From: an uncultured Spirochaetia bacterium
Lineage (GTDB): Bacteria > Spirochaetota > Brachyspiria > Brachyspirales > Brachyspiraceae
Direction: 5' to 3'
Length of the DNA stretch: 36,730 bases
Assembly (NCBI GenBank): GCA_947040945.1
Contig: CAMRCO010000011.1
Coordinates: 1 to 36,730 of the forward strand
Below the pieces are notes generated by a model. That model saw only the letters and a list, made by a program, of their open reading frames with translations. It searched no databases and was not told where the DNA came from. Position 1 is the first letter of the stretch. Each line of letters starts with the position of its first letter. The translations under genes were made by a program, and so were the position numbers. Shown here in pieces: positions 27 through 12,281 of the stretch.

Positions 27-662
27 TTAAACTTTTTTGTATACAAAGAAATGTATTGAAAGTCCTTTGGCTCTCATTTTCTCTTCATACAGAGTAACTT
101 TATAGCCTTCTAAATATGGCTTATACTTTTCATCTAATGTATTTTCAAATAGGGTAGTACTTTCGAATACTGGGTTTATAGTTTCTAATGCATAACATTT
201 ATCATCTGTAACAGCATGAAATAATGCATCACTTTTTAATATTGAATGTACTAGGCTTAAAAAATTATGTGTGAATATGCGTCTATGTGTATGTCGTTTT
301 TTAGGCCAAGGGTCTGGGAAGTTTAGGTATGCTTTGTCGAAATAATAATTTTCTTTAAGTAAGTTTTCAATAATGGTATTTGCTTCACCAAATAATATTG
401 TAATATTTTTTAGGTTTCTTTTGTATGCTTTTGATAATGTTTTTTTGGCAGCTTTGAGTGAATACTCTATACCTATAAAATGTGTTTGAGGATTTTCTAA
501 TGCATGTTCAACTAAAAATTTTCCATTGCCAGAACCTATTTCTATTTCATAATTTGCAAATGATTCTAACCTTTGTTTAAGGCATTCTTTTGTGTCCTCA
601 TCAGATGCTGTTAATATATATTGTTTTATAATTTCGTCTGTAAGTGTAATATTGTTTCTGAT
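27..662 (-). CDS. trmB: tRNA (guanine-N7)-methyltransferase TrmB, apparent ATC start
   Basis: TrmB makes m7G46 in tRNA using S-adenosylmethionine. Translating the minus strand gives about 211 residues with the SAM-binding motif EIEIGSGNGKF (about residues 39-49), FIGIEYS, and the family signature NFPDPWPKKRHTHRR, ending HFFVYKKV. The frame is open from a stop at 690-692 to the stop at 27-29. It holds no GTG or TTG, and its only ATG is at 75-77, close to the C-terminus. A good Shine-Dalgarno AAGGAG (670-675) sits 7 bases before an ATC codon at 660-662, so I place the start there. ATT at 666-668 is too close to the AAGGAG. The upstream barrel gene ends at 682, so the two are probably co-transcribed. 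Product identity is nearly certain; the start is the uncertain part. Confidence 0.9.
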   Translation of the reverse strand: MRNNITLTDEIIKQYILTASDEDTKECLKQRLESFANYEIEIGSGNGKFLVEHALENPQTHFIGIEYSLKAAKKTLSKAYKRNLKNITILFGEANTIIENLLKENYYFDKAYLNFPDPWPKKRHTHRRIFTHNFLSLVHSILKSDALFHAVTDDKCYALETINPVFESTTLFENTLDEKYKPYLEGYKVTLYEEKMRAKGLSIHFFVYKKV

Positions 663-681
663 ACTAATTCTCCTTAATTTC

Positions 682-1788
682 TTAAAAAACTATTTTTCCC
701 ATTAAATAATATCTTTCATCGGTCGAGCCTTGAAATCCAAAAGTAAACTGATTATATTTTATATATGCAGTATATTCAAGTAGGAATAAACTGTTGTCTT
801 TATTAACATTATTATCACTACTATAGGGTAAATAAAACATAGGTCTTATGGCTATATTAAATACGCTATACTCAATGCCAATTTCATTTCTTATATAATG
901 GGCAACATCGACTTTTAACGTGTATTCTAAAAGCAAATTAATCCATAGCTTTTCATCTAAGAGTGGAATTTTACCTGCACTTGATACTTGAAATAAATGC
1001 TGTGAGAAGTCGAAGTCATCTGGTGAAAGAGAGCTTTTGCTATTATTCTGATATAAAGCAGACACTTCAAAATATTCAAAATTAAATTTTACCAATGCTG
1101 CGAGTGGGATTGAGTCTTCCCAAAAACCTTGAGAGTATGATACTTCATAATAATTTCCGATTAATCCAGCTCTAAATCCAGGCTGATTTTCTATTCGAGG
1201 TAAATACCAATGAGGCGTATTTGCATTATAAGAATCTGAATCAATAACCGAAGGCATTAACATAAAAGTAAAACCATTCACATCATTTACACTTCTTGTT
1301 CGCATAGATATAAGTATTCTAGTAAAAAAAATAGTTTCGATGCCAGCATCATAAAGTGATAAGTCAGCAGTAGGTTCAGTATTTACACCAAGGTCAAATT
1401 TGCTTGAAACTGTTATAAATGGTTTTATAGAAGTTGACCAATGAGGATAAAAATTGCGACTTACCATAAGATACATACTAGGCATATAAAATATTGACCT
1501 GCTAAAATCAGCCCCAATATCCATTGTTAGGTGAACATCTATTTTTGAAAGCTCACCTAAAAGTGTGGTAGGGCCAAGGCTTTCTATTGTTCTAACTTTT
1601 TTATAACTATTATGTATGTAGTCGTATGGGATTAATCTTCTTGTGTATCTTTTATTTTCAAAGCCTATATAAGGATGTATATTTTTATATGTAGAGAGGA
1701 GATCTTGAAATTTTGTAGTGTATGGGGACACTCCATATAGTGTTAGTCCATAAAATATTGTTAAAAAAATTATTATAATTATTTTCAT
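682..1788 (-). CDS. Predicted outer-membrane beta-barrel protein, unknown function
   Basis: The 368-residue product starts with a signal peptide (MKIIIIIFLTIFYGLTLYG, about residues 1-19). The body is rich in Tyr, Phe and Ser/Asn with many short alternating hydrophobic stretches, and it ends in YYLMGKIVF. A C-terminal strand closing on Phe is the usual recognition signal for outer-membrane barrel assembly. I do not recognise a family. It is followed 19 bases later by trmB, with no terminator seen between them. An exported barrel in the outer membrane is an inference from composition and the C-terminal residue; a periplasmic protein is possible. Confidence 0.7.
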   Translation of the reverse strand: MKIIIIIFLTIFYGLTLYGVSPYTTKFQDLLSTYKNIHPYIGFENKRYTRRLIPYDYIHNSYKKVRTIESLGPTTLLGELSKIDVHLTMDIGADFSRSIFYMPSMYLMVSRNFYPHWSTSIKPFITVSSKFDLGVNTEPTADLSLYDAGIETIFFTRILISMRTRSVNDVNGFTFMLMPSVIDSDSYNANTPHWYLPRIENQPGFRAGLIGNYYEVSYSQGFWEDSIPLAALVKFNFEYFEVSALYQNNSKSSLSPDDFDFSQHLFQVSSAGKIPLLDEKLWINLLLEYTLKVDVAHYIRNEIGIEYSVFNIAIRPMFYLPYSSDNNVNKDNSLFLLEYTAYIKYNQFTFGFQGSTDERYYLMGKIVF

Positions 1789-11624: not shown

Positions 11625-12281
11625 GTGCTAGTAAAAAAACTTTATGAGGGAAATATCAAAACAACATCTAAAGAGGTAATGCTAACTCCTACATTAAAAG
11701 CGAAGTCCACGCATAATTTTGAAAACGGTACTAGTCATAATACGAAAACTATTAATGTTAGTATAGTCATGATTAAGAGTAGTTCTCCACCGCCTGATTA
11801 TTATATGGAAGATATTAATTTTGAAATTGAAAATAAGTTTATAGATGCAGCTTGGAAAATATATTGGCTTTGATATAGTTTTTTATGTGGTAGTGATTCT
11901 GATATAGATAGTGTTGTAGATTTAGATGTTACAGCAGGTGTTCGTTATCAATTAAATATTCGTGATGCGTCTGGTTTTTCGAATACAAATCCTTTACATT
12001 CACTTTTTCCTGAAGTAGGTATAGTATTAAAATCTGTTGATATGCTTACTATTAAAGGTCATGGTGAAATATTAGATATTTTTGAAAAAGATATTGAAAC
12101 TATAATTGACTTGGAACTTGCGAGAATAAGTTTTTATTTTTTAATACTTGTTGATAACTCTAAAGTAATGGATATTATGACAGAGGAACAGTTTAGTAAA
12201 ATCAATGATATAAATTATGAATATCAAAAGTTTGCTTTAATATTAAAAAAGTTAAAATCTTATAGTATGCTAATTAACTAG
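11625..12281 (+). pseudogene. Broken gene of unknown function, interrupted by one TGA
   Basis: One reading frame runs from a GTG at 11625 to a TAA at 12279-12281, interrupted only by TGA at 11871-11873. The first part includes LYEGNIKTTSKEVMLTPTLK. After the TGA come VVDLDVTAGVRYQLNIRDAS, LFPEVGIVLKS and a charged helical tail ending KKLKSYSMLIN. Alternating hydrophobic stretches suggest part of a beta-barrel, but no signal peptide or clear Shine-Dalgarno remains. I do not recognise the family. It is probably a truncated, inactivated outer-membrane-type gene. Two separate small genes are a less likely reading, since both parts share a frame. Confidence 0.5.

Follow-up and report, generated by a model that had tools for sequence, protein, structure and literature searches.

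The window, i.e., the whole stretch of 36,730 nucleotides that was analysed, is the beginning of contig C11 of the host assembly (2.17 Mb, 130 contigs), and the host belongs to a family that includes named Brachyspira species. The features of interest, all on the minus strand, are given below in the order in which that strand is read:

682..1788, minus strand: upstream gene from the ORF list, 368 aa, with a signal-peptide-like N-terminus; ends 19 nt before the ATC
690..692, minus strand: TAG stop in the trmB frame, 5′ of trmB, which bounds any upstream start
670..676, minus strand: Shine-Dalgarno sequence TAAGGAG (7 bases; AAGGAG = 675-670), 7 nt (669-663) from the ATC
660..662, minus strand: ATC start codon of a frame without canonical start, presumably read as fMet
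27..662, minus strand: trmB, tRNA (guanosine(46)-N7)-methyltransferase, 211 residues, stop TAA 29-27 (TIGR00091, PF02390)

The product of the 27-662 frame matched the profiles TIGR00091 (122.8 bits vs. a cut-off of 112.65) and PF02390 (132.5 bits) and is by family TrmB, with a predicted m7G46 methyltransferase activity. For the upstream gene, searches gave no Pfam or NCBIfam matches; its product is possibly an outer-membrane protein. Following TAG 692-690, the minus strand reads TTT TTT AAG AAA TTA AGG AGA ATT AGT ATC AGA AAC AAT. No ATG, GTG or TTG start was found in the trmB frame back to this stop, and the first such codon in the frame is ATG 77-75, situated 195 codons past the ATC (codon 196). 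Reading of the frame thus bore out the earlier statement, made in a sequence-only reading of the locus, that it holds no GTG or TTG and has its sole ATG (75-77) near the C-terminus. The reported distance of 7 bases between AAGGAG (670-675) and the ATC was likewise correct, with the Shine-Dalgarno (SD) sequence extending one base further, to TAAGGAG. A second ATH codon, ATT 668-666, follows the SD two codons 5′ of the ATC. We rejected it as the trmB start because the SD is just 1–3 nt away; moreover, the position of the ATC agrees with that in relatives. As the sequence-only reading had proposed, trmB almost certainly starts at the AUC codon 660-662, since its frame contains no canonical start and relatives carry AUC, AUU or AUA (collectively AUH) at the matching codon. 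The gene combines the lack of a usable ATG, GTG or TTG with a properly spaced SD and a weak codon kept in relatives.

Homologues of trmB were present in 31 of 31 genomes of the order, and start codons were compared in the 30 with an intact N-terminus (in G028 the gene is cut by a contig end). In the aligned N-termini, the codon homologous to ATC 660-662 was AUH in 8 of 30 genomes (which represent few independent events and not eight independent tests, because AUH was inherited), TTG in 22 and ATG or GTG in none. All TTG genomes belong to the Brachyspira-like genus g3 and read TTG AGA. In 12 of them an in-frame TAA directly precedes the TTG and blocks any upstream translation in frame, which marks the TTG as the start. 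G001, the only other congeneric genome compared (65% protein identity; L004, = locus L033), has no canonical start and an ATC at the equivalent codon, in the context AAGGGG TTCGTT ATC CGT AAC AAT. The start regions of the remaining AUH genomes are AAGGAG TTTTATT ATT AGA (G003), AAGGAG AATAATT ATT AGA (G023), AGGAG AATTATT ATA AGA (G005), GAGG AAAATAAA ATT AGA (G002) and, in the two genomes that represent the sister family, GGAGG ATACG ATC CGC (G029) and GGAG TTCTGCC ATT AAA (G030). The spacing between SD and start was 7–8 nt in seven of the eight AUH genomes and 5 nt in G029. By our own count, the mean SD match was 5.4 bases in the AUH genomes vs. 4.1 in the TTG genomes. Residue 2 of TrmB was Arg in 29 of 30 sequences and Lys in one, so that homology pins down the position of the start.

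The canonical codons at hand differed among the AUH genomes. The host (G000), G001 and G003 have none ahead of the SAM motif, while G005 and G023 have a single one, unusably late, one codon ahead of the motif. The first in G029, a TTG 26 codons into trmB, also comes too late to be used. G030 has a GTG five codons 3′ of its ATT and G002 a TTG six codons 5′ of its ATT, both without an SD. Judged by these codons, the AUH start is forced in six genomes and favoured in G002 and G030, because canonical codons without SD exist nearby in these two. Outside the order, canonical starts were available in 94 of 95 trmB loci beyond the confirmed Brachyspirales set; the exception, L070, is a short variant in which no canonical start lies well upstream of the motif, and its N-terminus differs from that of Brachyspirales trmB. 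As a separate observation, an out-of-frame ATG (CATGAGG) in G002 (L031, 1380-1430) opens a 10-codon frame that overlaps the trmB start, possibly by chance.

An error in sequencing or assembly, or a start codon lost recently and in the host genome alone, might be suspected from the 130-contig assembly, the position of trmB at the very end of a contig and the single base that separates ATC from ATG, but this explanation, considered already in the sequence-only reading together with an indel joining the frame to an upstream start, is negligible in probability, because the independently assembled sister species carries ATC and six other genomes carry AUH at the equivalent codon. The canonical codon sought in close relatives was absent from the nearest of them and from the seven genomes besides the host that have AUH; it was encountered only as the TTG of most g3 genomes, which are more distant from the host than the sister species G001.

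In the TrmB tree, AUH is found on all deep branches. The TTG genomes are surrounded by the sister family (AUU, AUC), G002 (AUU), genus g1 (AUC, AUC), G003 (AUU) and G005/G023 (AUA, AUU). The tree itself gives two gains of TTG and is also compatible with a single origin, the exact branching order being rough owing to several long branches and unsettled bootstrap values. The simplest reading of these sequences is that the AUH start is ancestral to the order, or nearly so, and that UUG replaced it inside genus g3. The non-AUG start of trmB looks like a long-kept, order-wide trait.

To place this start in its genomic background, we surveyed 832 kb of the host genome (~38%), with 785 coding-like ORFs, 756 of which were scored. 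Their starts were ATG in 667 (88%), GTG in 43 and TTG in 39, with none in 7; the weak start of trmB runs against this trend. trmB was the top-scoring coding frame without a canonical start in these 832 kb, where the other AUH candidates were antisense or broken frames, with the exception of murF. In 343 kb of G003, trmB alone emerged as an AUH candidate that is conserved and has a strong SD, the others being again antisense or broken frames. We rejected the idea that the genome uses AUH starts generally, as the two surveys yielded trmB in both and murF only in the host. The murF gene (L145 16010-17371, plus strand, contig C3) overlaps with the last part of murE and lacks ATG, GTG and TTG for 155 codons; candidate starts are an ATA that shares bases with the murE stop (ATAA) and an ATT preceded by AAGGA. 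In the sister species, GTG stands in place of this ATA, so the murF AUH start is private to the host, and it could be a sequence error. Elsewhere in the window, a coding-like frame at 11630-12281 (plus strand) is broken by an in-frame TGA and its downstream part is startless; it resembles a gene in decay or an error in the sequence.

The gene preceding trmB was also compared. Its homologue adjoins or sits near trmB across the family (45–53% identity) and is directly 5′ of it in G001, G003, G005 and G023. In these four genomes and the host, the upstream gene ends about 20–92 nt before the AUH codon, and it is probably co-transcribed with trmB. In the TTG genomes the homologue is found 200–761 nt from trmB, or its place is taken by another gene or a contig end, and in many of them a candidate promoter-like sequence, TTGACA ... 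TATATCAT, is visible ahead of trmB. The arrangement would suit a scenario, dependent on one or two events, in which the start was weak while trmB shared an mRNA with the upstream gene and eased to UUG after trmB had moved away. G002 contradicts this pattern: a hairpin and a T-run are located between trmB and its upstream neighbour, yet the gene has an ATT with an SD.

Such proximity raises the possibility that ribosomes enter trmB from the upstream gene, by frameshifting or read-through, and that no separate trmB start is used. In the host, the upstream gene ends in a T run (GTTTTTTAAG) at which slipping by +1 would bring ribosomes into the trmB frame. We consider this extremely unlikely, as the frame relation is not conserved (+1 in the host vs. 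−1 in G001), the distance between the two genes varies over the range given above, trmB is separate from the upstream gene in G002 and the TTG genomes, and joining a tRNA methyltransferase to a protein that appears to be exported would make no sense. Reinitiation, in which ribosomes that have just terminated on the upstream gene begin again at the AUC close by and the codon is used only through translational coupling, would account for the short distances in the AUH genomes vs. the long ones, or the other neighbours, in the TTG genomes. Still, a separate SD is kept at the correct spacing, gaps of 40–92 nt are long for reinitiation, G002 retains its ATT and SD despite the hairpin and T-run, and the association with TTG amounts to one or two events. 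Reinitiation thus seems to us a rather improbable explanation.

The AUH codon may also be a frozen, nearly neutral relic: little TrmB would be needed, nothing would drive the codon to ATG, and there would be no regulation. TrmB is non-essential in many bacteria, AUH was inherited along the deep branches, the AT-rich composition disfavours G, and murF has an AUH start in the host genome alone. Taken by themselves, the counts may be compatible with neutrality at the third base, given an AT-rich genome and eight inherited AUH cases, among which the lack of G is not improbable. Against a relic speak the changes that the codon has undergone: its third base has been C, T and A, and TTG has arisen, but it never became ATG, the start of 88% of the scored genes and a single change away. 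The AUH genomes also have longer SDs. Overall, we regard the relic as unlikely.

We favor instead, as the likely reading of the whole, that trmB starts at AUC and that an ancestral non-AUG codon has been kept as a weak-start brake that is probably sensitive to IF3. Known AUH starts lower initiation because their third base is mismatched to the CAU anticodon, and the resulting complexes are rejected by IF3. On this model, trmB would probably be translated from a transcript shared with the upstream gene. The ordinary initiator tRNA would read AUC 660-662 through a third-position mismatch, while the good SD at 7 nt would hold initiation in place. The weak P-site codon would act as a constant brake limiting the yield of a low-dose tRNA methyltransferase. 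As IF3 rejects such codons, trmB output would probably also respond to IF3 and to start-codon fidelity. Translational throttling of this kind, with its probable IF3 sensitivity, is in our analysis a probable function of the codon. The DNA itself shows which codon is the start, where it lies and that it is conserved; the reduced yield and its reason are inferred, as is the IF3 sensitivity, the latter by analogy with infC, pcnB and ccpN.

The initiator tRNA and infC, which encodes IF3, were examined as well. The anticodon of the initiator tRNA is the ordinary CAU in G000, G001, G002, G003 and G017. An altered initiator tRNA was discarded as a candidate: when initiator-like anticodon loops were sought by pattern, with any base allowed at the first anticodon position, each genome gave one GGGCTCATAACCC loop, corresponding to tRNA-Met CAU, and two further matches, GGGTTAATAACCC and GGGATAATAACCC, fall outside tRNA genes. 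Among loci L113–L142, inspected by eye, every Brachyspirales infC that we read carries an ATG immediately before its conserved N-terminus. Of 11 other spirochaetes sampled, at least 6 (L114, L115, L117, L119, L121, L128) lack any infC ATG, GTG or TTG from the upstream stop to the conserved region, and ATA or ATT occupies the start place, as in classic IF3 autoregulation. It may be a coincidence that in the order AUH is found on trmB and not on infC. That the start-codon-fidelity control which most bacteria have on infC was lost in this order from infC, now starting with AUG, and is carried by trmB, so that m7G46 modification and with it tRNA stability would track the IF3 level or growth state via AUH, is very unlikely in our estimation.

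To our knowledge, only a handful of bacterial genes keep an AUU, AUA or AUC start. Classic infC, under translational autoregulation with AUU, AUA or AUC, resembles trmB in combining AUH with a good SD over a long evolutionary distance. It differs in that IF3 is an initiation factor with feedback; trmB is not, and has no direct feedback loop. The infC of Brachyspirales departs from the classic form by its ATG start. In E. coli pcnB, an AUU start limits poly(A) polymerase (Binns and Masters 2002, as cited in PMC13009471). Both pcnB and trmB have a weak AUH start and code for a low-dose RNA-acting enzyme, with limitation of yield as the proposed role; pcnB, however, is another gene for another enzyme in another phylum, and its limit was tested experimentally, whereas that of trmB is deduced. 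The AUU of cvfC1 and the AUA of ccpN in S. aureus are conserved starts with extended SDs that deliver ~10% of what AUG yields; in rich medium, ccpN reaches 30% (PMC13009471). They share with trmB the AUH codon, the strong SD and conservation, in their case across genera. Their products are unlike TrmB, CcpN being a repressor of transcription and CvfC1 a small protein whose function is unknown, and both starts have ribosome-profiling proof, whereas the trmB start is read from sequence. Within open-licence papers, our literature search retrieved no report of trmB or a tRNA methyltransferase with an AUH start. Conserved AUH starts are therefore already known (infC, pcnB, ccpN, cvfC1), while trmB, within the open-licence literature, appears to be a new member, and the history of its start across the order seems new as well.

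Gene callers restricted to ATG, GTG and TTG will shorten trmB in these genomes or label it a pseudogene. The order-wide trmB case adds tRNA modification as a new function class to the genes with AUH starts, and the genomes of the order, with AUC, AUU, AUA or UUG at this codon, form a natural series that makes the idea of a start-codon brake testable.
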